Of a stretch of DNA of 64,000 nucleotides, positions 1 through 28,500 are shown piece by piece. Both the position numbers and the translations under genes were made by a program. Source of the DNA: Tetradesmus obliquus (lineage: Eukaryota; Chlorophyta; Chlorophyceae; Sphaeropleales; Scenedesmaceae); contig CP126202.1 in assembly GCA_030272155.1 (NCBI GenBank), positions 3,059,501 to 3,123,500 of the forward strand, written 5' to 3'. The notes below the pieces were generated by a model, which saw nothing but the letters and a program-made list of their open reading frames with translations, made no database searches and had not been told where the DNA came from. Every line of letters begins with the position of its first letter. The stretch's first letter is position 1.

Positions 1-55
1 GGCAGCAGCAACTGCAACCACAGCAGCCACAGCCAGTGCAGCAGCAGCCAACGTG

Positions 56-98
<43 letters not shown>

Positions 99-453
99 TG
101 GCAGGTACAGCAGGTGCCCCAGCAGCAGCAGCAGCAGCAGCAGCAGGCGCATCTGCCACAACCACAACAGCAACGGGCAACCAGCAACCCAGCAGCAAAC
201 GCTCCTCCTGCTGCCGCCGTCAACGCACCCAATGCTGCCAGCAGTAGCAGCAACCTGCCAAGCAGCAACCTGAACAGCTACAGCAGCAGCCCTACACCAC
301 AGCCAGCAGAAGGTGCTGCGTTTGTGGCTCCTGCTGCTGCCCCTGCTCCTGCTGCCCCTACTGCAGTTGCTAACACTAACTCTTCTGATCCAACTTCCAC
401 AGCCACCGGTGGCGCTGCAACAAACACCAACACCACCAGCAGCAGCAGCATGG

Positions 454-487
<34 letters not shown>

Positions 488-1458
488 GGACGCAGCAGCG
501 CGGCTGCAGGCAGCCAAGGCAGCCATGCAGGCAGCCATGCGCAGGGACTACAGCAGCAGCCTGTACGAGCCGCTGCAGCTGCAGGAGCTGCAGGCGATGC
601 CGGCCGCGGAGCTGGCTGTTTTGGGCGGCGTTGAAGCAGTTGCAGGAGAGAAGACTCAAGATGAGGCAGCGACAATGGAGCCGCTGCAGCTGCAGGAGCT
701 GCAGCCGATGCCGGCTGCAGAGCTGGCTGTTCTCAGTGGCGCTGAAGCAGCTGCGGGAGAGACAGCGCAAGATGGGGAAGATGAGGCAGCAGCGAAAGTG
801 GGGCCCCTGCAGCTGCAGGAGCTGCAAGACAATGGAGATCTGGCTGTCAGCGGTGCTGGTGCTGGTGGTGGTGCAGCAGTTGCAGCCGACAAGGGACAAG
901 ATGAGGCAGCTCAGGCAGCAGCAGCAGCAGCAGCAGCGGCCGCACAACTGCAGGACACACAAGATGCCGGCAGTGCTGGTGCTGTCGCTTCAGGGGAGAC
1001 AAGGCAAGGTGAAGCAGCGCAGGCAGCAACAGCAGAGACCTCGCCACAGCTGCACGGCACTCGCGATGCAGGCTCGACTGCTGTTCACAGCAGTGATGCA
1101 GGTGAAGTAGTGTCAGGGCAGAACAGTCAAGATGATGCGGCAGCGCAGGCACCGACAACAGAACAATCAGCAACGCCACAGGGCAGCACTGCAGCCACAG
1201 AGGAAGTTAGTGGGGACCAGGCGCATGAAGAGTATGCAGAGCAGAGGGCAGCGCTGGAGGCGGAGAGTGAAGGTGGAGAGGCTGCACAAAGTGTGATGCA
1301 GGGACAGAGCAACGCAAGTGCTGCGGGACGTGGCACCAGCAGCAGCAGCAGTGGCAGTGACATCGCTGCTGCACCTGCTTCTAGTAGCAGCAGCAGTATT
1401 AGCAATGGAAATGTGACAGAGAAGAGCAGCGGCATTAGCAGCAGCAGCAGCAGGAGAC

Positions 1459-1502
<44 letters not shown>

Positions 1503-2216
1503 CGGAGAAGCAGGAGCCGCACCACCAGGAGCAGCGAAGCATCAACTGCAGCCGCAGCACCTGCACCTGCAGCCGTACCACCTGCAGCAGCAGCCTCAGA
1601 ACCTGCAGTAGCAGCTGCAGAAGCTGCAGCTACAGAACGTGCAGCCACAGAACTTGCACCTGCACATGCAGCCACAGAACTTGCACCTGCACCTGCAGCC
1701 GCAGCACCTGCACCTGCAGCACCTGCAGCACCTGCATCTGCAGCCGTAGCCGCAGAACCGGCAGCCACAGAGCCTGCACCTGCTGCAGATGCAGTGTTTG
1801 CAACTGCAGCAAGTGCTGCCGCTGCTACAGCCGCAGCACCTGCAGCCGCAGAACCTGCACCTGCAGCCGCAGCACCTGCAGCCACAGCACCTGCTGCTGC
1901 AGCTGCTGCTGCGAAGCAGGTGGTAGCAGATGCAACGGCCCAGAGCTCAAACAGTTTGAGCACAAACACTACCAGCAGCAGCAGCAACAGCAGCAGTACA
2001 GGCGGCGCACGCCGCCGCATCAAGGCCGGCGGCGACAGCAGCAGCAGCGGCACCAGCCTTTCTGCTGTGCAGCAGCTGCTGGCAGGGCAGCGAGAGCTGG
2101 CTGCTGCTCAGCGCAGATCTGCTGCAGCCGGCAGCAGCAGCAGCAGCAGCACTCAGGCAGAGATCCGCAAGGCGCGCCGGGCTGCTGCTACAAGCTCTGG
2201 CAGCAGCAGCAGTAGC

Positions 2217-2247
<31 letters not shown>

Positions 2248-2322
2248 ACAGTGAGAAGCCAGGTGATGTGGTGCAGGTGATGGGCAAGTGGGTGCTGACT
2301 GGCTTCGAGCAGGATAAGAAAG
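1..2322 (+). repeat. Low-complexity coding exon (poly-Q/poly-S/poly-A)
   Basis: The first visible helicase exon is almost entirely compositionally biased: CAG runs read as poly-Gln near 59-150, then Ser runs at about 450-485 and 1440-1500, then a long Ala-Pro-Glu stretch (about 1550-1910) made of degenerate 6- and 9-base repeats of the form ACCTGCAGC. A roughly 120-base unit encoding EPLQLQELQ with a following LAVL segment repeats three times between 567 and 850. The frame is open from position 3, so the true start lies before the window. The last part ([19 protein letters not shown]) is the only ordinary-looking sequence. Confidence 0.7.
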
Positions 2323-3166
2323 GTAGGCGGGGGCGGCCAGCTTTTCAGTATGAATCGCAGACGTAATACAGTGCAGGCATGATGCAACGGTATGTCCAAA
2401 ACGCATGCCACAGCATGACAGCTCTGGACGCATGCCATGCCAAGACGTCATGATGACAAGATATCGCATAAAAACTTGCAACTTGACGTGCTGTGTGCAG
2501 CTCTGGAGGCGCGCGTGCCGCCGCTGAAGGCGTGGCTACCGCCAGAAAGGAGTTGCACTTGCTATGCACCTAACAACGTTCTTTGCTGTCCCGCTGCCTC
2601 AATGCGTGCCGTGTGCAGAGCTGGAGGCGCGCGTGCCGCCGCTGCAGGCCACGCTGCACTGATCAAGGCATCACATACCCTAAACCAACCTCTGCTGTCC
2701 TGCTTGCTGCAATGCGTGTTGTGCGCAGAGCTGGAGGCGCGCGTGCCGCCGCTGCAAGCCAGGCTGAAGTCTGCTGTTGAGGCGGAGCAGCAGCACGAGG
2801 CGGCGCTGCTCAAGGCGCTGTACGCCAGCGGCAGCTTGAGGCGGCTGCAGAAGGACGGCCTGGCGCTGCTGCGGCTGCAGGTGGGTTGTGTCACAAGTTT
2901 TGTAGTCAATAGCACCAACAGATGTGGCGAGTATCAGCCAGTCATCATGCCATGCATCACTGCAGCTTCAAGGCAGAATGTGATTTTTACACTTGAGCAT
3001 GATGCAAAATTCGTGCGCATAACATGCAGGACACTGCAGATCAACTGTTCAGCACATTCTGATTGTCACCGTCATATCTGCTGTTGCTCTTTTATGCAGG
3101 CGATGCCGCATAGTGTGCTGTACAGCAGCATGGTGTGGAAGTTCAGTGTGGGCAGCGCAGCAGGCC

Positions 3167-3227
<61 letters not shown>

Positions 3228-5667
3228 TGGCAAGGAGCTGCCCTACCATCGCTTCAGGCAGGGCGACAGCGTGCTCATCTCACGCTTCAGCGAGGGCCAG
3301 GCCCAGGTGGGTGTTATATAACATGAAAGTAACACAACAGTGACACAAAAGTAACGTAGCCACAAGGGGTGTCCAGCAACGAAGGCTGACAGCCCTGCGA
3401 CTTGCAAAGGTGGATGGCAGCAGTATAGATTGATCTCTGCGTGTGTAAGGCATTTGCCTTGATTTTGTTGAGTGCATTGGCAGGGACCCTCTGTGTAACA
3501 TGTGGGTTCGAGCGCCTAACAGGACAGCCACCCATGCGCAAAGGTGCCCGTGCGTAACCTGGTGGCGTGTATGCACTGCAGGCTATGGAGCATGACCGCA
3601 GAGGTGGCAGCAGGGACCGCACAAGCAGCAACGGCAGCAGCAGGAGCGGCAGCAACGGCAATGGCAGCAGCAGTGACGGCAGCAGCAGCAGCGCTGGCGT
3701 ATGGCCTGGTGGCGAAGCTGATGGCATGCGGCCACTGGATGCCACAGTGCTTGAGGTGGGCTAAATAACATGTTACAGTTTTCAATATGACATGTCACCT
3801 GTAGCTGTTTGCATCATGGATGTGCCCAGAACAACTGCAGTTTTAAGTGTGCCATCATCCATTTGTGCGCGGGGGGCAAATGCGTTTCCGCTCCTTTTGC
3901 AAACAACCTGCTGCTTGGTGCGCAAGGATCACATGCTGCTGACCACGGACAAGGAAAGCAACAGCCGCATGCTTTTATAATGCAAACGTGTGTTGACGCA
4001 AACACATGTGCTTGTTTTCATTCTGCTTCCAGGTGCGCAAGGACCATCTGCTGCTGACAGTAGACAAGGCAGACAGTGACCTCATGCAGCGCACACTTGC
4101 GCACGCATCCCTGTACACCCAGCCTAACGTTCTTCTCTGCTGCTTTCTGTTTCTGTTGCCAGGTGCGCAAGGACCACCTGCTGCTGACAGTAGACAAGGC
4201 AGACAGTGACCTCATGCAGCGCGCGCTGGCCCAGGCGCCTGCAGCAGTGCTGGCCAGCTGGCGGCTGGACCAATCAGTGCGCGACACCACTGCACGGTAA
4301 GGACGTTGAGCGCGTGGGGATGGCGTTGCAGCCGTAGGCTAAGCACCTGCAGGGTTTGTAACAGAACAGTGCTGCATTGTGTCTGACATCTATCGAGAAA
4401 TGCAGTTGGCGGTATAGGGGCAGGCGCTATGTCAGCGACTCTGGAGAATACAGATGCAGGTTCCACGCATGGCCAAGCCTGCAGGTACATGTTGGAGAGG
4501 GAGAGTTTCCTTTTTACAACATGAAAGGAGGGCTGAAGCTGTCTCTGGCGCTGTACCTGTGCAGGAGGTAGCTGCAGGCAGTCGCGTGGCTGGCGCACCT
4601 GCGCGGTGACGGCAACCCCTGTGCTTTGCTTGCCTACACCCGTTGGGGTCTGCTGCTTTTCCATCAAACACTGCATTTTGTTTTCTTCCTGTACTCCTTC
4701 AGGCGGCAGCTGGAGGCAATTGCACGGCTGGCGCACCTGCGTGTTCAAGGCAGCCCTTTCCAGCCGCTTCGGTACACCCATTGTGGTCTTGTACAATCTG
4801 CTGCTCTGCCGTCTAACCCATGGTTCATTTCTTTACCTCTGCAGGCGCCAGCTGGAGGCACTTGCACGGCTGGCGCACTTGCGCGTGCAAGGCAGCCCTT
4901 TTGAGCTGCTGCTGCGGGCCTGCCTGGTGGGCATGCCCTCTGGTCACCAAACCAAATCACAACACCTTCCAAAAAGCAATCATCCTCACGACTGTGGCTT
5001 ACTTTTATTATGTGTGTGGTACCTGCAGGCGGCAGCTGGAGGCCATTGCGCGGCTGGCGCACTTGCGCGTTCAAAGCAGCCCTTTCGAGCTGCTGCTGCG
5101 GGCCTGCCTGGTGGGCACCCCGGCAGGGCACTACATTGCCAGCCTGCCTCCGCTGTGGGTGCGGGATTCAGCGTGGCGCGCTGACGTGCGGGCGCTGCTG
5201 GGACAGCTGCAGAACCTCAACAACAGCCAGAAGCAGTGAGTGGGTTGGGTTTTGGTTTTGGGGGCGTTTGAGCATGGCTGCGTTGTTCTAGGTTGTTTTT
5301 TGTACGGTGTGGATGCCCGAATTGAGCTGGAGCATGTGTCAAAGCTGTCAGCGTGGCTGTTGAAATTTTGTAGAGTTGTGCCCTGGGGGCACTGTATACT
5401 GCCAGCCTGCCTCCGCTGTGGGTGCGGGATGCGGCGTGGCGCGCTGACGTGCGGGCGCTGCTGGGACAGCTGCAGAACCTCAACAACAGCCAGAAGAAGT
5501 GAGCTAGTTTATGTTTTTGGGGCGTGTGAGCATGGTTGGGTTGTGTTAGATCCACGTGTATGCGCTGCGGTTGCCAGGTGTTCACTTCTGAGGCCTTAGC
5601 ACAGGCCGTAGTGTGCAGCCTGACGTAGTGGCAGCAGTCCACATCCCTGTGTTCTCCTCTGACCATA

Positions 5668-5716
<49 letters not shown>

Positions 5717-6910
5717 CCTGTCACAGGGCCATCGCGCAGGCTGTGGTGCGCAGCCTGACGCTGTGGCAGGGCCCGCCAGGCACAGGCAAGACGCGCACGC
5801 TGCTGGCCCTGGTGGAGGTGCTGGTCAAGACGGCACTGGCAGAGGTGCGCGCCGTGACATGTGACAATTTGTTACAAGGTTTCTTATATGACAAGGTGAC
5901 ACAGCTGTCTGGGATGTCGGTCTGGCATTGCTGGCCTTGGTGGAGGTGCTGGTCAAGACGGCACTGGCAGAGGTGGCACCGTGACGTTTGGCAGCTACAT
6001 CACAATCACACTCTTACTGCGGCATACGTGTTTCAGGTACCTCTCTCTGTTCGTCTACTTTTTGGTTGCGCTTGTATGCGCTGCTGGAGCTGGAGACGTG
6101 GCGAAGGCAATGTGCCCATTGCTGGCCTGCGCTGACACCTTTGTGACACCCCTGTTAGGGACACCCCTGTCCATGGCAGCTTGGTCCATGGGCTAATGGC
6201 TTGGCCAGGGTGCACGGGATGCCATGGGATGCAGCAGGATGCTATGGCTTGGCTCATGGACACCCCTGTGTTGGCTCATGGACACCCCTGTGTTGGCTCA
6301 TGGACACCACTGTGAGGGACACGCCCCCCGGGACACACCTCGTACTGACGCATGTCCCTGCATGTGCTGCTTGCAGCCGGAAACGCGCTGGAAGGCGATG
6401 GGCCCGCTGCTGGCCTGCGCTGACACCAACGCTGCAGTGGACAACTTGGTGGAGGGGCTGGCTGATAAGGGGCTCAAGGTGGTGCGCCTGGGACAACCTG
6501 CCAAGGTAAGACTTATGTAGGCATTGCTGAGTTGTTGCCGGGTCACTTGTTGTTGGGTTTGGGTGACATGTGACAACCTTGTTGAGGGGCTGGCTGACAA
6601 GGGGCTGAAAGTTGTGCGCCTGGGGCAGCCGGCAAAGGTGAGGGTTGTTTGGCCACTGCTGAGTCACTGCTGAGTTAGCAGAGAATCAGAAGGCTGGCTG
6701 GCAACCTTGTGGAGGGCTGAAAGTGGTGCGCCTGGGCCAGCCAGCAAAGGTAAGGATCCTTCTTGTGAAACAGTGCACGGCATCTCTGTTTGTACACGTT
6801 TGCTTTGAGGGTTGGTGGTTCATTTGGTAGTCGGGCTTGTAGTGAGAGAACCGTATAATAAACTGTCAGCAGCTTGCTGCCACTCAGTGGCTGTGGCTGA
6901 GGCATCACTG

Positions 6911-6980
<70 letters not shown>

Positions 6981-8124
6981 AGGTGCGGTCAGGGCTGCGG
7001 CACCTCACGCTTGAGGCGCTGGCTGAGGCCACGCCTCTGGGGCAGCGCGCAGCAGCACTGCGGGAGTCGTCAAAGGTGGGTGGCCAGCGCAGCATGTAAG
7101 CCTGGTTTAGGCATCGTTGTGTTGGGTTGAGGAATGTTTGAGGCATTTGTCGCAGATGATCTCAGGGCTTTGTCTTTTGCCACCTGGAGGCGCTGGCTGA
7201 GGCCACACCCCTGGGGCAGCGAGCAGCAGCACTGCGGGAGCCGTCCGAGGTAGGCTGAATACAGCTGATATGGATGACCCTCAGGTGTAGGAAGGATGCG
7301 TAATGCTCAGCATGCTGCACAATCGAGGCTGGCGCGGCGTTGTTGGCAGTGCGGGTGATGTTGCAGATGCTTGGGCGGTTTATGCATGCGCGCAGGTGAC
7401 CTTGCTGTTCTGACTGCTCTGACGTTGCCCCCACACTGCTGTTGCTGAACAATTGGTTCCTCCTGCGCTGTGTGTTAGGCCCTGTTTGAGCGCGCTAAGC
7501 AAGCAGCAGAAGGCTCCCTGCTCGCCTGGGGCAGCAGCAGCAGCAGCAGCGCCATCACCCCTAGCAGCAGGTCAACCCGCAGCAGCAGTGCAGCATCCAG
7601 ATCTGCTGGCAGCAGCAGCAGCAGTGTGGCGGTTGGATTGCTGGATTCAGAGAGCTTGGAGGCTGATGCGAGGCGCAAATGGGGCCAGGCGGAGGCTCTG
7701 AGCAGCGAGGCGTGCCAGCAGGTGCTGAGTGGCGCGCATGTGGTGTGCGCCACGTGCGCTGGCGCCGGCGATCGCATGCTCAGCGACCTGTGAGTGCTGA
7801 TTGTGTTTTTTTTGTGGCTACCTTTGCCTGCTGGCTCTGAACAGGCTGGCACCAGCGACTGTTTGCTTTGTGACCTGTGAATGCTGTGGTACGCTGTGTT
7901 TTTGGCTCTGCTGTTGTGCATGAGGGCATGGGATTCATGCTGTTCATGACCTGTGGATTTTGATGGTGTTCTTTGTTGTTGCTATAGCGTATGCTGGCGC
8001 TGCGAGCGGATGCTGGCTAACCTGCTGCCGTTTGTATGATTGTGCAGGCACTTGAATGTTGCGGTCAACGGCAAAGCAAGGCAAGCTGCGGAGCCAGCCA
8101 CCCTCGTGCTTCACACCATGCTGC

Positions 8125-8158
<34 letters not shown>

Positions 8159-10930
8159 TCTGCTGCTGCAGCCACTTTAACGTTGTCGTCATTGACGAAG
8201 CAACACAAGCCACAGAGCCAGCCACGCTTGTCCCACTCACCCAAGGCGCTCAGTGTGCAGTAATGGCGGGAGATCCAGCGCAGCTGCCGCCCACCATCAT
8301 CAGCAGGGAGGCCTACAAGTTTGACCTGGATGTAACGTTATTTGACCGGCTTCAAAAAGGCGTGGGGCTGTCGCCGCTGCTGCTGGACACGCAGTACAGG
8401 ATGAATCCGGCCATCTCCTGCTTCCCGAGGTGCGTACGTTTGGCTGCATTAGCGTTATTGTTCATAGCATCATGTGATTGTGGCTGCAGCTACACCTTAT
8501 TGCAGAGGTTTATGGTTAGTCTGGCTTCAACATCACAGTTGACGATGTCACCGTACAACAAGCGATCAGGGGGAAAAGCGCTGACACAGCATGTTGCTGT
8601 GTGCATGCCTGTCTGCTGCTTGCAGCTGCTGCTTCTATGTTGGCCGGCTGCATGACGGCGTGGCTGCCTGCCTGCTTGTGTGAACAGAGCAATACGCTGA
8701 TAAACACCGTCTCTTTCTGCCTGCCTGCCTGCCTGCCTGCCTGGCTGCCTGCAGCCGCTGGTTCTACGGGGGGCGGCTGCGTGACGGCGTCGCTGCCTGC
8801 CCGTTTGAACAGAGCAATAAGCTGACAAACACTTGCCTTCTGCCTGCCTGCCTGCCTGCCTGCAGCCGCTGGTTCTACGGGGGCCGGCTGCGTGACGGCG
8901 TAGCTGCTGCCGACAAGCCGCCTGCTGCTGGCGTGGAGTGGCCTGTGCCTGGCTGCCCGGTGATGCTGCTAGCGATACAGGGGCTGGAGGAAAAGGCGGA
9001 GAAGAGCGGGCAGAAGGTGAGCGATGTTGTGCGGTTTGGTACAGTTGGGGGTGATGCTGCTGGCGATAAAAGGGCTGGAAGAGAAGGCGGAGAAGAGCGG
9101 GCCCAAGGTAAGCGAGCTCAGGTGTCAGTTGGCGGGGTGAGGGCAGGCAAAAGGTTACGTCTGCTGCCGGCTGAAGACGAGGACTGCAGCACTGGCCATG
9201 CCGCTCTTGTTGCAGCTAGTGCTTGCGTTTCATATGCGCTTCACACCACCATATAACCCGTCTAGAGCTAGCTCCAACGCAGCTGCTTCACAACTCAAGG
9301 CTTGATGTGAACAGACTGCACAGCACACTGCTGGATCGCACAGAATGCTGCTATGTACTGTCCTGTGTAAGCGCCTGGCTGGTCGGCATGCAATGCTATG
9401 ATGCTGCATCCCCCTCCGCTCCACATGTTTGCCCCATTTGCAGGCGCCTGGCAAGTCACCATCACCAGGCGGCGCTGAGCTGTCCCGCTCCACTGAGGCA
9501 GGCCTGGAGGATGCCAGCTACAGGAACCTGCCCAACTAACCAACCATTTCAATGCATGTCTGTCCTGCAGGCGCCCGGCAAGCCGGCAGGTGGCGGCGCG
9601 GCTGAGCTGTCCCGCTCCACCGAGGCAGGCTTAGAAGATGCCAGCTACAGGAACCTGCCTGAGGCAAGGCTGGCGCTGCAGGCGCTGCACGCACTCATGG
9701 CCGCAGGTGCGAACAGCAACAGCAGCAGCATCAGCAGCAGCAGTTCTGTCTGTGCACATCATGTAACAGGTATTCCAATTGATTGCCAGCTCAGTCTGCA
9801 GCATGCTTGCCAGCAGCAACCGCCGCCCCGCCGCTGCCACAACCTTAATCAAGCAAGCTGCCATGGCTGTAATGATTGTTGCCTCAGGCGATGCCGCAAC
9901 ATGGGTGATCCTGACCAGATGCAACTGCCCCCCCTTCACTGCCTGTCTCTTTTGTGCTTCATTTGCCGCCGCAGGTGACGCTGCAAGTGGCGCCATCCTG
10001 ACGCCTTACAAGGGCCAGGTGCGGGCGCTGGAGTATGGCCTGCGCGTGCTGGCGCCTTGGTTTGCTGGCTTAGGCAGTGTGAGCGTGAGCAGCGTGGACG
10101 CTTACCAGGGGCGGGAGGCGGACGTCATCGTGTTCAGCGCTGTCAGGTGCGTGTTACCAAGGCGTGTTATTCGCTTGTTATGACATGTTTGACATGTTGT
10201 TGCATCACGCCTTGGGGTGTCAGAGCGTGAGCAGCGTGGACACCAGGGGCGCCAGGTGGACGTCATCGTGTTCAGCGCTGTCGGGTGCATGCTATGCGGG
10301 AGTGTTGGTGAGATGCTACAACGTGTGTACAACGTGTATTGTGAGGGATGGTCTGGCAAATGGGTGGTTTGAAAATTAGTGGCGGCAGGTGGATCTCAGG
10401 GGACTTGTGCATCAACGCTGTATACGCTTGTGTTTCTGCTGGCCCTGCTGCTGACCAGACCCCTGCCCGTGCCGCAGTTCTCAACTTGAAGTACTGTTGT
10501 GTTTGCTTGCCCCTGCAGGTGCAACAGCGCTGGCAAGATTGGCTTTGTCTCCGACCCTCGCCGCCTCAACGTAGCGATCACGCGCCCTCGCCGCGGCCTG
10601 ATCGTTGTCGCCTCGCCAGACACACTCAGCAGGGGATCCTCCGATTGGGCTGCATTTGTAAATTGCTGCGAGGAGAAGGGTTGGGTGGCGGGGCCTCAGC
10701 AGCTGCCCAATGCTCCGTGGCAGGATGAGGGCGTGGATCCTTTCGCGGCACGGCCGGCTGACAGCAGCAGCAACAGCAGCAGAAATGCGGCTGGTTCTGG
10801 GAGTGATGGTGATGATGTGGTGGCTAGCAGCAGTAGGGCGGGTGGTGTGCGTGGTGGTGGGAGGGCTGGGGTTGAGTGGTGGCAGGGTGCAGCAGGTGGG
10901 CCAGTGGCGGGGTCGCTGGGGTCCGTGTGA
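1..10930 (+). CDS. UPF1/IGHMBP2-like SF1 helicase, 5'-truncated by window edge
   Basis: Superfamily 1B RNA/DNA helicase. Exons (frame-checked): <1-2322, 2729-2880, 3100-3306, 3582-3755, 4163-4296, 5029-5235, 5727-5844, 6377-6505, 6983-7075, 7479-7789, 8172-8429, 8866-9016, 9571-9706, 9975-10146, 10519-10930; at least 1657 residues. Visible motifs in order: Q-motif NNSQKQAIAQAV, Walker A GPPGTGKT (exon 7), motif Ia-like [13 protein letters not shown], motif [10 protein letters not shown], motif [24 protein letters not shown] followed by FYGGRLRDG, motif [16 protein letters not shown], motif [18 protein letters not shown]. The FYGG and motif VI context resembles UPF1; a role in RNA decay or transcript processing is only family inference. 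The first exon (about 770 residues of poly-Q, poly-S and poly-A) is joined here because its donor at 2323 (phase 1) fits the acceptor before 2729; alternatively it is a separate gene ending at 2366. A TGTAA motif lies at 11126-11130. Confidence 0.85.
2491..2658 (+). repeat. Exon-2 echoes in helicase intron 1
   Basis: Two degenerate copies (about 2491-2537 and 2582-2658) of the 5' edge of exon 2, each keeping a TGTGCAG-type acceptor followed by CTGGAGGCGCGCGTGCCGCC. The genuine copy starts at 2729 and is the only one that continues into the full exon and its donor at 2881. Confidence 0.85.
3169..3225 (+). repeat. (CAG)19 poly-Gln tract in helicase exon 3
   Basis: Uninterrupted CAG x19, read as 19 glutamines inside exon 3 between VGSAAGR and [10 protein letters not shown]. 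Confidence 0.95.
3913..4108 (+). repeat. Exon-5 echoes in helicase intron 4
   Basis: Two truncated copies (about 3913-3961 and 4016-4108) of the 5' part of exon 5 ([20 protein letters not shown]). The second keeps the CAG acceptor and differs from the genuine exon (4163-4296) by only a few bases over about 75. The first has lost the acceptor and is more diverged. Confidence 0.9.
4550..4942 (+). repeat. Three exon-6 echoes in helicase intron 5
   Basis: Copies at about 4550-4612, 4690-4777 and 4836-4942 of the 5' part of exon 6 ([16 protein letters not shown]). They grow longer and more similar towards the genuine exon at 5029-5235; the last two keep a CAG acceptor in the right phase. None has the following LNNSQK end and donor, so they are pseudo-exons or possible alternative acceptors. 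Confidence 0.9.
5378..5634 (+). repeat. Exon-6 3' echo and exon-7 5' echo in intron 6
   Basis: 5378-5552 copies the 3' half of exon 6, its donor and about 45 bases of following intron; 5596-5634 copies the 5' end of exon 7 ([12 protein letters not shown] region) in degraded form. Intron 6 therefore holds a donor-side copy followed by an acceptor-side copy. Confidence 0.88.
5670..5714 (+). repeat. (CTG)15 before the Walker A exon
   Basis: Pure CTG tract ending 12 bases before the acceptor of exon 7 (5727). It appears to serve as the pyrimidine-rich part of the 3' splice site. Confidence 0.9.
5916..6140 (+). repeat. Exon-7 and exon-8 echoes in intron 7
   Basis: 5916-5981 copies the 3' end of the Walker A exon ([13 protein letters not shown] plus donor), without the P-loop itself. 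6078-6140 is a degraded copy of the 5' end of exon 8 (the LLACADT region). The genuine exons are 5727-5844 and 6377-6505. Confidence 0.88.
6251..6312 (+). repeat. 22-base minisatellite in intron 7
   Basis: About three head-to-tail copies of a 22-base unit beginning GCTCATGGACACCCCTGTG; the third copy is diverged. Confidence 0.85.
6568..6760 (+). repeat. Two exon-8 3' echoes in intron 8
   Basis: Copies at about 6568-6655 and 6694-6760 of the 3' end of exon 8 ([21 protein letters not shown]) each retaining a GTGAG or GTAAG donor. The second has an internal deletion. Both follow the genuine exon (6377-6505). Confidence 0.9.
6914..6979 (+). repeat. (CTG)22 abutting an acceptor
   Basis: CTG x22 followed at once by CAG, which is the acceptor of exon 9 (exon starts 6983). 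The microsatellite takes the place of the polypyrimidine tract. Confidence 0.92.
7180..7256 (+). repeat. Exon-9 echo in intron 9
   Basis: Copy of the 3' part of exon 9 ([18 protein letters not shown]) with a GTAGG donor; the genuine exon is 6983-7075. Confidence 0.88.
7856..8116 (+). repeat. Donor and exon-11 echoes in intron 10
   Basis: Around 7856-7892 and near 7949 are short copies of the exon-10 donor region (GACCTGTGAATGCTG-like). About 8040-8116 is a diverged copy of the 5' part of exon 11, the motif II exon, in which the DEAT codons are destroyed. The genuine exon is 8172-8429. Confidence 0.75.
8633..8836 (+). repeat. Two exon-12 echoes in intron 11
   Basis: Copies at about 8633-8700 and 8740-8836 of the exon-12 acceptor and the [12 protein letters not shown] segment, separated by CTGC-rich filler. 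The genuine exon is 8866-9016. The second copy keeps the sequence encoding [11 protein letters not shown] intact but runs into a stop-rich region. Confidence 0.9.
9043..9536 (+). repeat. Exon-12 3' and exon-13 5' echoes in intron 12
   Basis: 9043-9116 copies the exon-12 3' end ([15 protein letters not shown] and donor) and 9438-9536 copies exon 13 from its acceptor to ASYRNLP. Both lie between the genuine exons 8866-9016 and 9571-9706. Confidence 0.9.
9886..9920 (+). repeat. Exon-14 5' echo in intron 13
   Basis: Short degraded copy of the exon-14 acceptor and the [10 protein letters not shown] segment; the genuine exon starts at 9975. Confidence 0.7.
10208..10295 (+). repeat. Exon-14 3' echo in intron 14
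   Basis: Copy of the motif V end of exon 14 (SVSSVD...DVIVFSAV) with deletions and a degenerate donor; follows the genuine exon ending at 10146. Confidence 0.88.
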
Positions 10931-12041: not shown

Positions 12042-15010
12042 GAGTTGGCCGCTGTGGTGCATGTACCACGCTGTGTGTGACGCGTATGTCATGGTCTTCC
12101 AGCTGCACATACGCAAAGCAATGCTAGCACTCTAGCCATCGTCTATTCTGCAGGGCAAGAAAGTCAGCATACATAAATGTCTCCCTGCGCAGCTGCCCTC
12201 GCTTTGTGTTCAGATGCCTGGCTTTGCTTCATTGCTCAGGCTATGTGTCGCATTTTTTTATGCACACCACAGGTAACGCCGGAGCGCTACATGCAGGCCA
12301 TTGCAGCACTGCAGCCAGACATGTACGTGGCTCTGGCTGATGAGGTAAGGAGGCTTTGCCGCAAGAAGATGCGAAGGAGTTCTTTTGTTCAGGATGAATT
12401 TCAAGTGCACTGCCTCTTACTGCAGAATGTTATCAGCACTGCCTGCAGCAACCCTACTGTGGATCCAGTGGGTGATGTTCACCGGGCCTTCACGGCATAT
12501 TGGTGAGAGCTGCCACTCCAGCAATGGGTTGACAAACATGATGTTACATAACCAGTCACCTTGCCAGGCCTGAGAAGCAAATGCAGTGCTGCTGGCTGCC
12601 CCTGTACTTGCTGCCGCCGTTGCTGCTGCTGCTGCTGCTGTTGTGTGCGAGCAGGTGCCTGGTGACGCCAGGCCAAAGCGTGTTGGGCAGTCGGTTGACA
12701 GGACCATCAAGGTGTGTGGATACCTTGAATACATCGCAAGCATTGCAATTATGTTGTCACACACCGTCTGATGCCTGCTGTTGGTGCTGCCCTGTGTGCG
12801 CACGGCGGTTGCCACGGCTGACAAAACCTGCAGTGTGCCAGCCACCTACATGCATCACCGATTAATTTCCCAGCTCTCTTGTGCGCTGCCTGCCGTATGT
12901 TTTGTGTTCCACAGTGGCTGGATGAATGCCTGCAGCACCACCAGGCAATGCAGCAGCAGCTGCAGCAGCAGCAGCAGGGCGAGGCAGCAGCGCCGCTGCC
13001 AGACCCGCAGCTGTTTGCTGCTGTTGTGGGTGCTGGCTCGGAGCAGGAGCGGCAGCGCTCAGCCAAGGCAGCTGCTGAGAGGGACGTTGCAGGTGTGTTA
13101 CTATGCTGCAAGCAGCAGCAGTCGACGGCTGGCGTGCACAGACGACGCAGTCTGGCGCATATGTGCGTATTGCCGCAAGCTGCGCTGCTTGTGTGCTGGT
13201 TGCTTGCAGCGCAGGATGTAGCGCAACGCATAAATCTTCATGTTTTTCTTCTTGCAGGATTCGCGCTGTGTGGCTTTGGCATGGGTGAGCCAGCAGCAGC
13301 ACGCCCGGCGCTAATGGCGGCTGCGCTGCAGCACCTGCCAGCAGAAAAGCCCCGCGTGGTGGTGGGCCTGGTGAGCAGCGTCAGCAGCAGCAGCAGCAGT
13401 TGTTGACAGTTGACAGTGGGACTGCAGTTTGCATGTAACGCAGTTGTCTTGCAACGCGTAAGATGCCAGCTTTGTGCTCGCAGCCAAGCGAATGATGGCT
13501 GCTGCCGCTCTTGGTGACTCTTCTGGTGGCAATGTGGGCAGGCTTATGCGACTCACCTAGAAGCAGCAGCAGCAGCAGCAGCAGCAGGGCAGCCATGGTA
13601 TATCAGCAGTTCTTGCTGAGCTACGCATGTCTAGCTTGAGCTGATGATGTTGTACAATGGAATCCAAGTTGCTGAGCTGCTGTCCCTCCTGCTAAGATCT
13701 CAATGGTGCAGCAATCTGTGCTGGTCAAACTGTGCCGGTCAACTGTGCTGGTCAAACTGTGTTGCTCAAACTGTGCTGGTCAAGCTGTGCTGGCTGACCT
13801 GTGCTGGCTGACCTGTGCTGGTCAAACTGTGCTGGTCAAACTGTGCCGGTCAAACTGTGCTGGTCAAACATCGCTGGTCAAACTGTGGTGCCCTGCAGGC
13901 CAGCCCTGAGGAGGTGCTGGCGGTAGTGCAACGATATGCTGCATAGCATATGCACTGAGCTGTCATGCATTTTGCTTGAGAATTCAAAAGCTTGTTATAA
14001 CACATCGTGATGGCATGTTACTGCTGTGTTGCAGGCCACCCCATAAGAAGTGCCGAAGGCAGTGGCGCAGGGCATCAACCTATTTAATTGCATTGCATGA
14101 CATTATCAAGGTTTTTGCCATTTTGCAATGTGCTGTCCTGCAGGCCAGCCCGGAAGAAGTGCTGGAGGCAGTTGCTCAGGGCGTTGACCTGTTTGACTGC
14201 AGCTACCCCACACACGCCACTGCTCAAGGCTACGCGCTCTGCTTCCCGCTGCGGCAGCAGCGAGAGCAGCAGCAGCAGCAGCAGCAGGATTGTGCTGATG
14301 CAGACTGTGGGGCAGATGACAGCAAGCTCAACCTGTGGTCGCTGCAGTACAGGTGAGAGGGGCTGGCAGTTGGGTGGGTGTACACAGCACTGGACAGCTG
14401 CGTGGCTAAACACAGCATGTGCTGCAGTACACAGTCACTGTACATATAGACCAATCTGCATAGTTGACACAAAGCTGCGCACCTTTAAGCAAACACTGTG
14501 CATGTCCAGCTTGTGTAAGGCTTGTGTAAAAGCAATTCACCAGCCGTACTGTGCTGCATGCTGCGCATCCAACCCCCTTCCTGCAGGACCGACAAGGGCC
14601 CCCTGGTGCAGGGCTGCAGCTGCTTCGCCTGCAGGAACTGTAGCAAGATGTATAGCAAAAAGGTCTCACCAACTGTGCTGTGCTGCATGCTGCGTATGAT
14701 AACCCTTTCCTGCAGGACCGACAAGGGCCCCCTGGTGCAGGGCTGCAGCTGCTTCGCTTGCAGGAACCACAGCAGAGCCTACCTGCACCACCTGCTGCAC
14801 ACCCATGAGATGCTAGCGAGTGTACTGCTGGAGCTGCACAACACGCACTGGTGGTTAGGGTTCTTTGGGGCAATACAGGAGGCAATACAGGCGGGGCAGC
14901 TGCAGCAGTACATTGGCTGGTTCAAGCAGCGGCGGCAGGGGCAGCAGCAGCTGCCTGAGGGGCTGATTGAGGCAGGAACGGGCAAGGGGCAGTTGTGGCA
15001 CAAGCTGTAG
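11423..15010 (+). CDS. QTRT2: Queuine tRNA-ribosyltransferase accessory subunit 2
   Basis: Exons: 11423-11610, 11783-11963, 12273-12344, 12655-12711, 12915-13092, 13258-13370, 14144-14352, 14716-15010; all phases agree and give 430 residues (human QTRT2 is about 415). In animals QTRT2 pairs with QTRT1 to exchange guanine-34 of certain tRNAs for queuine; it lacks catalytic activity but is needed for the complex, and a mitochondrial association is known for the animal protein. Family marks seen: LYTRRGGC near the N-terminus, KPRVVVGL...SPEEVLEAVAQGVDLFDC, and the zinc-binding GCSCFACRNHSRAYLHHLL near the C-terminus (Cys-x-Cys-x2-Cys and a downstream His), then LGFFGAIQEAI. A poly-Gln insertion sits in exon 7. 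TGTAA at 15327-15331 is a candidate polyadenylation signal. Introns 6 and 7 contain exon echoes. Confidence 0.9.
11997..12038 (+). repeat. (CAG)14 in QTRT2 intron 2
   Basis: Pure CAG x14, intronic. Confidence 0.93.
13716..13887 (+). repeat. 14-base minisatellite in QTRT2 intron 6
   Basis: About twelve tandem copies of CTGTGCTGGTCAAA with substitutions (for example CTGGCTGAC variants), directly upstream of the first exon-7 echo. Confidence 0.9.
13895..14090 (+). repeat. Two exon-7 echoes in QTRT2 intron 6
   Basis: 13895-13935 and 14025-14090 are copies of the exon-7 5' edge (CAG acceptor plus ASPEEVLEAVAQGVDLF). The genuine exon begins at 14144. The second copy has several substitutions that remove the conserved Ser-Pro-Glu. 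Confidence 0.88.
14570..14652 (+). repeat. Exon-8 echo in QTRT2 intron 7
   Basis: Copy of the terminal-exon acceptor and TDKGPLVQGCSCFACRN, almost identical to the genuine sequence from 14716 but followed by stop-containing intron sequence. Confidence 0.92.
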
Positions 15011-21287: not shown

Positions 21288-24200
21288 GGAGCTGCGTGGG
21301 TTTGCTGAATGCAGCAGTGCAACAATCGACGCCCTGCAGGGGGCTGGTGAACTGACCCCACACGTGATGACTGCTTGCACATATCACATGTTCTTACTGC
21401 TTGTGCACGGCAACAAAACGTACTGCATGCATCCAAACACACACTGCAGGCTCACCTGGTAGCAGCGCCCGCAGCTGCCTGGGTAGTCCGCATTTGCATC
21501 GGCCGCAGCAGCATACATCTCCCTGGGGAAAGGCAGGCTGCCATCACTGTTGGTGTAGCCGCAGGCTCCCTGAGCCAGTATGCCGTACTGCCCTGGCGGC
21601 TCGCCACACGCCAGCCGGCTGGCCTCCAAGCGGTCATCTGCATGTGTAGTGTACATGCAGCAAGTGCAGCAAGGTATGCAGATGAGTTGCAGCGTCTAGT
21701 GGCAACCCGCCGCCTGGCGTCTGGACATTCAATTGCAGTCGGGCGGTTGCAGCAGGCTGTGAGGATCAATGGTTAGTGACAGGCAGGATGGTGTTGCAAT
21801 CACACATTGGTTTGGCCGCAGGCTCCTTGACCCAGTATGCCATACTGCCCTGGCGGCTCACCACACGCCAGCCGGATGGCCTCCAGGCGGTCATCTGTCA
21901 TAGAGGCGGTTGCAGCAAGGTGTTGTGAACGCAGTACAGCAGGGATTGGCGGGTGGTTTGATGTGGGCTTGACACCACACAGCTAGCCTCCAGACAATTG
22001 CCTGCAACTGAAGCGGCTGTAGGCTGCAGCATCAAGCGTGCATTGCAATTTCCACAACTTGCATGCCGTTTGATGATGGCAGAGCACACAGCAGCGACGC
22101 ACATGCTTGTACACATCAAGTACAGCACCATACCCGGAACAGTCCAGCTTGTCTCACATGGCGGGTGACAGGCGATTCTTCCAGGGATCTGCTTGCCAAG
22201 CAGGCGAGCTGCTGTGCGCCGCACCAAACTGGCCTATGCAGACATACATTCAACAGCAGCACCACAGTATGCGCCTCACCTACACCATAAAAAGTTACTC
22301 TGCCGGGGATTCTCTCCCCTACAGGCACACCCACCCTGGGCCGTCTCAAACTCACAGCCAGCATGCTGTTAAGTAATCTGTGAAGTCCCCTCAACTGCAC
22401 CATAAGAAGTAGCCCTGCCGGAACTGGGCTATACAGACATACACTCAACAGCAGCACCACAGTTGGCGCCTCACCTGCACTGTAAAAGGCGGCTGTCAAC
22501 TTGACTGTGCAGACACACGTAATTGCAGCACAACACCACCCGCAGCAGCCCACCTCACCTGCCCCGTAGAAGGTGACCCTGCCAGGAATCCACTGCCCAA
22601 CAGGCACATCCGGGCTAGGCCGCTTCGGGCTCACAATTACCCACGAAACTGTAGATGAACAGGCAACAGAAGCACCACACTTGCAACAGCCCGCCTCACC
22701 TGCCCCGTAGAAGGTAACCCTGCCTGGAATCCACTCCCCAACAGGCACATCCGGGCTCAGCCGCTTCGGGCTCACAGACAGCGTGCTGTTCAAGTCATCT
22801 GTGAAGTCCCCATCCACAGGAGGGCTTGGGGTTATCACTCTGCCGCCTCAGACTGAAATGAACCTAGGACTAAACTGTACATAACCAAGTAACAAAAAGC
22901 ATCACACTTGCAACAGCCTGCCTCACCTGCCCCGTAGAAAGTGACCCTGCCTGGAATCCACTCCCCAACAGGCACATCCGGGCTCGGCCGCTTCGGGCTC
23001 ACAGACAGCGTGCTGCTCAAGTCATCTGTGAAGTCCCCATCCACAGGAGGGCTTGGGGTTATCACTCTGCCGCCTCAGACTGAAATGAACCTAGGACTTA
23101 ACTGTACATAACCAAGTAACAAAAAGCATCACACTTGCAACAGCCTGCCTCACCTGCCCCGTAGAAAGTGACCCTGCCTGGAATCCACTCCCCAACAGGC
23201 ACATCCGGGCTCGGCCGCTTCGGGCTCATAAGACAGCGTGCTGTTCAAGTCATCTGTGAAGTCCCCATCCACAGGAGGGCTTGGGGTTATCACTCTGCCG
23301 CCTCAGACTGAAATGAACCTAGGACTAAACTGTACATAACCAAGTAACAAAAAGCACCACACTTGCAACAGCCTGCCTCACCTGCCCCGTAGAAAGTGAC
23401 CCTGCCTGGAATCCACTCCCCAACAGGCACATCCGGGCTCGGCCGCTTCGGGCTCACAGACAGCGTGCTGCTCAAGTCATCTGTGAAGTCCCCATCCACA
23501 GGAGGGCTTGGGGTTATCACTCTGCCGCCTCAGACTGAAATGAACCTAGGACTTAACTGTACATAACCAAGTAACAAAAAGCATCACACTTGCAACAGCC
23601 TGCCTCACCTGCCCCGTAGAAAGTGACCCTGCCTGGAATCCACTCCCCAACAGGCACATCCGGGCTCGGCCGCTTCGGGCTCACAGCCAGCGTGCTGTTC
23701 AAGTCATCCGTGAAGTCGCCTTCCACTGGAGGGTTTGGAAATATCACTCTGTTACAACCTGGAGGCCCTCTGATGGTGCCTGGCAGGTCAGGCAGAGGGT
23801 AGTTAGTGGCAAAGCGGCTGTTGGGGCCGGCTGAAAAGGGCACGAACGCGCGGCTGGGGGTGCGATTAGTCAGTGGTGCTGCTGCTGCTGCTGGTGTGGA
23901 GGTGGTGAGGTTGGTTGCTGGGGCGGGGGTGGTGCGGTTGGATGGGGTGGGGGCAGCAGTGGTGCCTTGAAATGCTTCTCCCTCTGTTGCAGGTTCCGGC
24001 ACTGGAGATGGCAATGCTGCTGTTGCTGCTGCTGCTGGTGAAGTAGGACGAGCAGTTGAGCTAGCGTTGCTGGGGCTGGGTAACTCTGGTGCCACTGCAG
24101 TGATGGGTTCTGGACCGGGGCTGGGCCTGGGGCTGGGGCTTAGGTTGATGAGTTCTGGGCTAGATGTGGTTGACTCTGGCGCTGATTCTCTGGGCGCCTC

Positions 24201-25524: not shown

Positions 25525-28500
25525 TCAGCTGAGGCCCAGGTGAGCCACCAGCAAGGCCACTAGGTCACTCTTCTCAACAGCACCAGCCACACCTGGCACA
25601 CCCAGGCCAGCCAGCAGCGCCTTCAGCTGGCGAACAGGCAGCGCAGCAGCAGCAGCGGCACTGCCAGGCAGCTCCAGGCCAGCTGCTGCAGCAACACCTG
25701 CGGCGCTGCTGCTGCTGCTGCTGCGTCCAGCACCGCTACCAGTAGAAGCAGCGCTGCCGCTGCTGGCTGCAGTGCTGCGACCTTCTGCTGCTGCTGCTGC
25801 TGCTGCAAGCTTCTTGCAGACCAGCTTGTGCCCCGCCTTCCAGTGCTGCTTCTGGCACTCCGCGCTGCACATGCGCACCTGCCTGCAGCCGCTGCACAGC
25901 TTGGCCCTGCCATACACCAGCTGCAGCTCGCTCAGCTTGCCCAGGTTGGTGCAAGCCGCGTTGTTGCAGGCCCAGCCAACAGGCAGCGCAGCCGCACCAA
26001 ACGCCCTCAGCCGGCCTGGCAGTGCATCACCCCACACACGCTGCAGCAGCAGGGATGCTGCTGTGCTGCACACATCATGCTGTGCAGCTGATGGTGGCCC
26101 TGCAGCAGCAGCGCGCTGCACTGCCTGATACAGGCCCGCCTGTAGCTGGGCATGCTGCTGCAGCAGCTGAGTCAGCAACGGCATGCGTGCGGCACCCTCC
26201 TCAGGACTTCTGCTGCTGCTGCTGCTGCTGCTGCCCAGCTGAGGTGTCGGCACCTCATCGCCTGGCAGCTGCATGTGGCACAGCTGAGAGCCCAGCATGT
26301 GGCACAGCATGTGGCACAGCATGTGGCACAGCATGTGGCACAGCATGTGGCACAGCATGTGGTACAGCATGTGGCACAGCTGAGAGCCCAGCATGTGGTA
26401 CAGCATGTGGCACAGCTGAGAGCCCAGCATGTGGTACAGCATGTGGCACAGCTGAGAGCCCAGCATGTGGTACAGCATGTGGCACAGCTGAGAGCCCAGC
26501 ATGTGGTACAGCATGTGGCACAGCATGTGGCACAGCTGAGAGCCCAGCCACTCAGCACACACGTATGCCCTCTCAAGCAGCCGGATGAAGTAACCCTCAG
26601 CAACCGCGTTGAGGTGATTTAGGGGGGCGGCTGTCGCATTGCTGTGCTGCTGCCTGGGCACTGCTGCGCTGCTGCTGCTGGCAGGCAGCAGCTCACACAG
26701 CAGCTGCCCCATCAGCCACATGCTACGCGCCGCAACAATCAGCCAGGGTGTCAAACTGGCAACCACTTCCTCACTGTACCACGCAGCAGTGCTGCAGCTA
26801 CTGCTGCTGGGGTCTACTCCTCCTGGCCGGAACAGCACCAGTGGCCCTGCTGCAATGGCAGCTGCCGCTGCCCAGCGCCCGGTGTGCCTGCCGCTTGACA
26901 TCAGCGCATCATCTGCAGCTGCGGCCTCCGCCAGTGGCCACGTCAGCAGCATCTGCAGAGTGCTGGGGTTCAGGCCCTCCAGGGTCTCCCGCAGTTCGCT
27001 GTCACTATCACTCAGCAAGGCAGTCCCCACAAAGCCGTCCAGCATCCGAGCAACCTCGCTGCTGGACTTGGCTGCCGATGTCAGGGCGCTCTTAAGCAGC
27101 GCACGCAGATCGTCCCCGCTTGTCTCCGACAGCAGCCGGCGCAGCTGCGCTGGCGGCAGCGCGGCGGCCTGCTGCTGCAGCCACTGCAGGCGCGCAGCGC
27201 TAGCGCAGCATGCCACGCGGTTGCGGCTGACTGTCGCGGCAACATCCAGCGCGATCTTTGGGCATGCTGATCGCATCGCAGAGGCGCACTTCTGCGCCGT
27301 CAGCATCAGCGAAATCAGGAACGGCACGTGCTGCTGGTCTGAGAGCTGCAGTGCGTGTGCATTGCTGCTGCTAGTGCTGCTGCTGCCGGCAACGCCGGAC
27401 ATCTGGTTTGCCATAGGCAGGTTTGACGACTGCAGGGCTGATATGGCTGCATTCGTCACTTGGTCAACTTGCAGCAGCAGTGCCTCTGGTGGCAGTGCTG
27501 TGGTCAGCTGCAGCGGCAGCAGCGACAGCATTGAAGCAGCGCCGTCTGCAGCAGCAGCAGCAGCAGCACCAGCGCTGCGTGTGCTGCCTCCTGCAGCTGC
27601 TGCTGCTGATGCATGGCTGCAGGTCACCTCACAAAGCACGCGCATCGCGGCACACAGTGAGACTGCAAAGGCCTCAGGCGACTGCTTCATTGCTGCTGCA
27701 AGGTGCTCAGGGTTGCCTGCAAGACAGGAGAGGTGCCGGCAGAGCAGGCAGCGACATGGGCGGCAAGAGCGATGTTCGGCTCAGGTGACGAAAATCTGCC
27801 AAGTTCGCCAACAGATTCAGGCGAAACAAGCCCCGCATCTACAGCAGCAATGGTGGGCTCAGGCCATTATAGTGCCACAAGATTGCCAGTCAGTGCAGCG
27901 ACGTTGTTGAGCATGCAGCCATGGACTTGCACCTGCAGTGAGAGGTGCATGCTGATGATGCAACAGACTCATCTGCATGTGAATACGCCTCCTCCACGGC
28001 AGCAGATCATTGACATGCGCGGCTATGCTGCACTGCCTGCGCATCAGATGCCCTCCATTGATCAAGCACGTGCTGCCAGCTGGCGATCAACAAGTCAATC
28101 ACGGCACGCCCAAAGGCTGCTGCACGCAACACCTGCTGCATCAACTGCAGCAGCAGCCCACCTGCACCAGCGGCATTTGTGACTGCCAGCGCCCAGTGCC
28201 ACCGCGCATACTGGCAGTGTACTACACATTGTATGGCATCCTCTTGCTGCTGCTGCTGCACTGCATGCAGCACAGCAGGCCCGAGCGTCACCACTAGCTC
28301 AGCCACTGCAGCAGCGCCCGCAGGCCGCTGCCACAGCCCTATGTCCTGCCGGGTTGTAGGCATGAGTGCTGCCATGGCTGCTGCATGCGTGCTGGAGCCC
28401 GGCCCCAGCCGCGCCACCTGCACCAGCATACACATCAGCGCTGGCAGCACCTGCAGCCAGCTGCTACCGCTGCTGTTGCTGCTGCTGCTTCTGTCTGATT

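Follow-up and report, generated by a model that had tools for sequence, protein, structure and literature searches.

The introns of a UPF1-like SF1 helicase gene of Tetradesmus obliquus contain degenerate copies of the edges of their neighbouring exons (hereafter referred to as echoes), and local direct repeats with the same periods recur elsewhere in the sampled genome. In our judgement these copies are probably best explained by recurrent tandem duplication with a preferred unit, junction-straddling copies being left to decay in the introns.

Echoes in the helicase introns

The gene spans positions 3..10930 of the plus strand of the window (the whole 64,000-nt stretch analysed), its 5' end lying outside, and comprises 15 exons that form one continuous frame down to a stop codon and are separated by GT..AG introns (Table 1). 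The encoded protein contains the Pfam domains AAA_11 and AAA_12, and its top PDB match is to UPF1 helicases. Its closest listed relative is P0001, a hypothetical protein from another T. obliquus record (96% identity over the searched part), which differs from our model at 31 positions along 896 aligned residues and is not encoded letter for letter here, the helicase locus matching it at 75–97% per piece and other loci at no more than 63%. When read against the helicase model, P0001 is devoid of any echo-derived insertion; its annotation thus makes the same splice choices as our model.

Each helicase intron was aligned with adjacent and non-adjacent exon edges, the 364 other pairings serving as controls. 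The adjacent-edge score reached at least 174 in 11 of the 14 introns (1, 4–12 and 14), in agreement with the earlier note, which had counted degenerate exon-edge copies in at least 11. The best adjacent-edge scores of introns 2, 3 and 13 (64, 89 and 83) lie below the 95th percentile of the controls, which is 117; the edges of short exons overlap, so that the control set is not free of true echoes. Under more stringent masking, and with other genes as the source of controls, 10 of the 14 introns display z > 5 and intron 1 a z of 4. The 19 best of 31 alignment rows (score of at least 149), one of which holds both copies of intron 1, define 20 echoes; the 12 weaker rows (scores 110–147), including one in intron 3, were dropped.

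All echoes adjoin their source exon in direct orientation, as expected for tandem duplication. Thirteen are on the acceptor side and seven on the donor side, consistent with the rule stated earlier that copies preceding an exon carry its 5' edge and copies following it carry its 3' edge; as a correction to it, the copy in intron 9 reproduces exon 9 entirely. The AG or GT dinucleotide is intact in 18 of the 20 echoes, so that decoy splice sites do persist, as had been proposed. The nearest copy is the least diverged in all five introns with several copies, albeit weakly in intron 8 (0.218 and 0.200), which bears out the claim that similarity rises toward the exon. More specifically, the series first placed at 4550, 4690 and 4836, ahead of the exon at 5029, corresponds to echo junctions at 4565, 4703 and 4845, with divergences of 0.27, 0.18 and 0.14. 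The step from copy to copy is 80–160 nt for 16 of the 20 echoes (median 129.5), and the duplicated units total 2887 of the 5954 helicase intron bases (48%). Once these units are subtracted, the helicase introns average 210 nt, close both to the three introns that lack echoes (219, 275 and 268 nt) and to the median (223 nt) of the 217 introns at z ≤ 3 in predicted genes outside the helicase. Steps, intron share and gradient all argue for the proposal that introns grow by regular local copying beside their junctions.

Whether the intron half of the unit was copied as well was assessed by a strict test that compared only the intronic portion of each unit, with control introns as the reference. 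In four of the 20 adjacent pairs (I1b, I6d, I8d1 and I11b) the similarity exceeds that of every control intron, while the other 16 are not distinguishable from control introns at the 5% level. Copying of a whole unit across the junction, as put forward in the earlier note, is therefore observed directly for four pairs; spacing and order suggest it for the remainder. This result lowered our confidence in tandem duplication and raised that in a process targeted to junctions. An apparent intron homology in 10 of the 20 pairs, obtained by outward extension over up to 140 nt, was discarded as overstated, such extension running into neighbouring exon-like copies.

Several simple repeats are also present in the gene. 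A pure CAG run in exon 3 (3168–3226) codes for polyglutamine, where P0001 has only QQHQQ. CTG runs at 5669–5714, 6908–6980 and 8119–8169 (100%, 97% and 91% matches) lie directly 5' of the acceptors of introns 6, 8 and 10, i.e. at the position expected for the pyrimidine tract. Intron 7 contains three copies of a 22-bp unit (6249–6314, 97% matches), a period below the main class.

Table 1. Exons of the helicase gene, echoes in its introns and exon-internal duplication (window coordinates).
Feature	Coordinates	Strand	Description
Exon 1	3–2322	+
Exon 2	2729–2880	+
Exon 3	3100–3306	+
Exon 4	3582–3755	+
Exon 5	4163–4296	+
Exon 6	5029–5235	+
Exon 7	5727–5844	+
Exon 8	6377–6505	+
Exon 9	6983–7075	+
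Exon 10	7479–7789	+
Exon 11	8172–8429	+
Exon 12	8866–9016	+
Exon 13	9571–9706	+
Exon 14	9975–10146	+
Exon 15	10519–10930	+
Exon 1 duplication	558..821	+	tandem duplication within exon 1, period 111 (37 codons); exon-internal form of such an event
I1a	2501..2555	+	far echo, exon 2 5' edge; AG kept
I1b	2619..2660	+	near echo, exon 2 5' edge; AG kept; intron flank alike
I4a	3918..3972	+	far echo, exon 5 5' edge; AG lost
I4b	4033..4115	+	near echo, exon 5 5' edge; 59/60 identical beside junction; intron flank not alike
I5a	4565..4647	+	farthest echo, exon 6 5' edge
I5b	4703..4788	+	middle echo, exon 6 5' edge
I5c	4845..4951	+	near echo, exon 6 5' edge
I6d	5381..5498	+	echo, exon 6 3' edge; GT kept; p 0.052; intron flank alike
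I6a	5592..5651	+	echo, exon 7 5' edge; AG lost
I7d	5909..5972	+	echo, exon 7 3' edge; GT kept
I7a	6090..6159	+	echo, exon 8 5' edge; AG kept
I8d1	6562..6637	+	near echo, exon 8 3' edge; GT kept; intron flank alike
I8d2	6695..6749	+	far echo, exon 8 3' edge; GT kept
I9d	7156..7249	+	copy of entire exon 9; AG before, GT after
I10a	8048..8109	+	echo, exon 11 5' edge; step 124
I11a	8626..8680	+	far echo, exon 12 5' edge
I11b	8755..8809	+	near echo, exon 12 5' edge; p 0.042; intron flank alike
I12d	9050..9107	+	echo, exon 12 3' edge; GT kept
I12a	9444..9532	+	echo, exon 13 5' edge; AG kept
I14d	10223..10284	+	echo, exon 14 3' edge; GT kept

Local direct repeats across the sampled genome

Twenty stretches of 10 kb, placed every 1 Mb along three contigs (C1, C4 and C8), make up, together with the window, a sample of 264 kb, 16.5% of which consists of local direct repeats. 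Direct pairs number 179 within 1.5 kb versus 27 at 3–4.5 kb (19 of them in one stretch, L013), and inverted pairs number 16. A shift scan detected 149 local direct-repeat events, 83 of which have periods of 80–160 nt, a count that includes stacks repeatedly (15, 14 and 11 of the 83 in the helicase and in stretches L024 and L028, respectively). Per 10 nt of period, there are 2.0 events at 40–60, 1.0 at 60–80, 15.0 at 100–120 and 14.0 at 120–140 nt; few events have periods of 40–80 or 160–200 nt. This peak holds in five threshold settings and upon removal of the loci richest in events (the helicase, L013, L024 and L028), and 200 kb of an order-2 Markov null yielded zero events with periods of 80–160 nt. 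BLAST self-comparison returned no periods below 100, which we ascribe to its handling of near-diagonal matches, hence our use of the shift scan. The earlier note had read the pattern as a gene-wide property of the helicase; the same mark being found in other sampled stretches, this helicase-specific explanation was dropped.

Duplicated units are found between genes as well as in introns and exons. The five exon–exon events of 80–160 nt all have periods that are multiples of three, and half of the 18 intron–intron events fall within the 80–160 peak, three of these nine being echo–echo pairs of the helicase. Using a home-made ab initio gene finder, we obtained 43 multi-exon genes, all models outside the helicase being predictions; predicted genes with fewer than three exons or less than 400 coding nt, introns shorter than 60 nt and edges with less than 35 unmasked nt were excluded. 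Echoes with z > 5 are present in 40 of the 265 predicted introns of the 42 other genes. Counted per edge, 69 of 476 display z > 3 (0.6% in controls) and 64 display z > 4 (0.03% in controls). Their distribution is uneven, many genes having none and a few having several. Echo-bearing introns of these genes have a median length of 264 nt versus 223 nt for those without echoes (P 0.06), a difference that is only suggestive. A 25-nt flank test, limited to introns of at least 90 nt and to echoes that come within 4 nt of the junction, was positive for 13 of 32 echoes outside the helicase and L028, 11 of 15 in L028 and 2 of 13 in the helicase.

Taken together with the helicase data, these observations suggest the following scheme. 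Tandem duplication of short stretches would recur genome-wide with a preferred unit of about 100–140 bp, near 120 bp, and the units would land in exons and introns as well as between genes. For a unit straddling a junction, the protein would survive only if splicing used the copy still attached to the remainder of the exon, namely the downstream acceptor or the upstream donor; the annotation of P0001 supports this choice for the present strain. Such selection would account for the placement of 5' edges before and 3' edges after the exons. The other copy would stay intronic, add one unit of length and decay, its exon-like part probably remaining recognisable longer than the flank because the partner of that part is conserved. 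Repeats at the same junction would build a stack with the oldest copy outermost. The tolerance of so many intact decoys (18 of 20) suggests that most echoes fail because the opposite splice site is absent. As to the molecular cause, we can only guess at a product of DNA repair or replication, for example fill-in joining of staggered breaks.

Other arrays were encountered in the sample. In L028 (7147–8720), a young array with a period of 106 and an identity of 0.94 repeats predicted exons and introns together, and is a whole-exon version of such duplication. L013 (1–10000) contains arrays mainly of 312–367 bp units, local direct repeats occupying 67% of the stretch. In the window, a young tandem array (22670–23751; 227-bp unit, 4.8 copies, 96% matches) sits in a predicted minus-strand gene, the predicted exons and introns of which recur in the array, and a minisatellite occupies positions 13712–13887 (14 bp, 12.6 copies). 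The window also carries, on the minus strand, a long open frame with a MYND finger (25525–27777; Pfam PF01753).

Decay of the copies and alternative explanations

The far echoes have decayed in the manner of non-coding DNA: changes found in them alone are distributed 21:27:22 over the three codon positions and those unique to near echoes 2:2:10, counts that include columns outside the copied part; within the copied part, the figures are 9:10:11 and 1:1:6 (P 0.02 versus even) for far and near echoes, respectively, and 2:0:7 for changes unique to the exon. Twenty-two of the 24 echo indels break the frame (length not a multiple of three), and the echoes contain three stop codons. There are 104 cases in which an echo residue differs from that of the exon. 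P0001 has the exon residue in 97 of them and the echo residue in four, namely at residue 1012 (three echoes) and residue 1043 (one echo). At both residues the echo state occurs in other records while the exon of the present genome differs; thus, I6d carries Ala1043, as do P0001, P0002 and P0003, and exon 6 itself has Ser.

Plain decay does not explain everything. The nearest echoes display 64 nonsynonymous and 72 synonymous differences, i.e. a rate ratio of about 0.33 where about 0.55 is expected, versus 54 and 35 in far echoes (ratio 0.59), both ratios being summed by hand; this low bias is not seen in I6d and I7d. For the untrimmed helicase set overall, the ratio is 0.41 and the nonsynonymous share 0.52 versus 0.60 expected (P 0.03). 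In the same untrimmed set, 6 of the 14 nearest echoes have an intron flank whose divergence exceeds that expected from plain decay; identity often stops at the junction, and several echoes have sharp limits. Among the 83 events, 48 are one-sided and 15 two-sided junction events (23 and 5 of 43 without the helicase, L024 and L028), when a neutral placement-and-decay simulation, with two-sided units left out, gives a junction share of 0.28–0.31. Detection bias alone does not close this gap at the observed divergence; faster intron divergence would shrink it. Allele-like birth, exon conversion or copying limited to exon edges could account for these misfits in flanks, junction excess and third-position lean, none of them being proven; the numbers are small and our verdict on the echoes does not rest on them. 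Score-trimmed echoes gave still stronger deviations (excess flank divergence at P ≤ 0.05 in 15 of 29 with few indels and in 13 of 29 with more indels; nonsynonymous/synonymous ratios of 0.21 and 0.30 in young classes), which we rejected as exaggerated because trimming lowers exon divergence. Note that L028 was excluded from the trimmed-flank, junction-limit, spacer-family and trimmed nonsynonymous/synonymous analyses.

The most serious alternative, possible although we do not favour it, is a refinement of tandem duplication in which the copies arise by unequal exchange between diverged homologous chromosomes and hence differ like alleles at birth, with a conserved exon part and a divergent intron part. 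It would fit the third-position changes and low nonsynonymous share of near echoes, the overly diverged flanks, the fact that only one of 15 non-coding events of 80–160 nt exceeds an identity of 0.85, and the presence in echoes of residues found in other records where the exon differs. In addition, published assemblies of two strains differ almost twofold in size (208 and 109 Mb; PMC5552973), as would be seen if haplotypes had been separated in the larger one. The numbers are small, however, I6d and I7d lack the bias, the score-selected set is more extreme than the full one, and intron flanks that look unrelated would be hard to obtain from divergence between alleles alone. The stronger statement that introns grow by duplications of about 120 bp joining two alleles at birth, so that echoes are allele fossils and a stack is a dated allele record, is in our view doubtful. 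The mismatch between exon and flank divergence, together with identity that ends at the junction, would also be produced by gene conversion limited to the exon, whereby the conserved exon refreshes the echo while the flanks diverge past the reach of recombination. We consider this unlikely, since conversion does not itself predict the third-position bias and since at residues 1012 and 1043 the echoes failed to follow the change in the exon. Merging of two haplotypes by the assembler would likewise yield allele-like near copies; neutrally decayed far copies, stacks of two or three copies and a period peak of 100–140 in many loci make such an artefact the least credible of all these readings.

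The junction excess, the sharp limits and the undetectable intron half of 16 pairs are what would be left by a process that is RNA-mediated or targeted to junctions, or by introners (a mobile intron family). Such an origin is improbable, given that the periods of the echoes recur in intronic, intergenic and exonic sequence and that some copies include the intron flank. Moreover, a search for an introner-like family among 44 spacers (L028 excluded) found none, the only sequence shared across genes being one 18-nt match, and a mobile intron family was rejected on that basis. Cross-gene comparison of introns gave 439 hits; among the 40 listed, 39 are within the L013 array. Finally, echoes might be functional alternative exons or regulated decoy sites, as could be surmised from the retention of splice dinucleotides and some coding-like constraint in near echoes. 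By a hand estimate, that retention is about the level expected under neutral decay; frame-breaking indels, stop codons, the partial nature of most copies and the lack of any of them in P0001 render such a function very improbable. Recurrent tandem duplication followed by decay thus remains our preferred reading.

Related systems and significance

Tandem exon duplication can give rise to mutually exclusive exons, with exon copies in neighbouring introns. The echoes share this location but, unlike such exons, most of those in the helicase cover part of an exon, have lost the frame and are in decay. None of the helicase echoes is a full exon copy with an intact frame and a splice site at each end; the copy of exon 9 has both sites but is 94 nt long instead of 93.

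Precedent exists for tandem duplication across a splice junction: in a potato RdRp gene, such an event at an intron–exon boundary made a new intron and exon (PMC4974935). As proposed for the alga, the potato duplicate crosses the acceptor junction, and it comprises the branch site, the pyrimidine tract and the 3' splice site. In contrast to the event described there, the extra copy in the alga lies silent in a longer intron, many junctions are affected and the step has a preferred length. An intron-creation model cited in the same text (PMC4974935) likewise rests on local tandem duplicates that contain splice sites; as outlined there, it makes an intron from exon sequence, whereas in the alga existing introns would grow, the echoes lying within introns of one continuous frame. 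Introners, reported mainly from fast-evolving lineages such as green algae, also bring splice sites into genes (PMC9860276), but no family is shared among the 44 spacers. A homology-independent route to small tandem duplications, similar in outcome, is fill-in by Pol alpha-primase followed by end joining at breaks (PMC8355091). It was demonstrated in cells of mouse and human, at overhangs of close to 50 bp, and is not known to be linked to the alga or to a 120-bp unit.

Among the top-ranked results of our literature search, which left most subscription papers uncovered, we found no report of such a pattern in T. obliquus. Its scale, the predominance of steps near 120 bp and the stacking of graded copies seem new. 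In our judgement, it is poorly understood how introns gain length other than by transposons. In the alga, a single mutational process whose step can be measured has deposited copies that can be dated, next to a conserved exon that serves as reference; one genome therefore suffices to follow intron growth, decay and which of several competing splice sites is chosen. The echoes are also a warning to gene finders: our simple one recovers most of the helicase gene, yet calls three of its echoes as exons.
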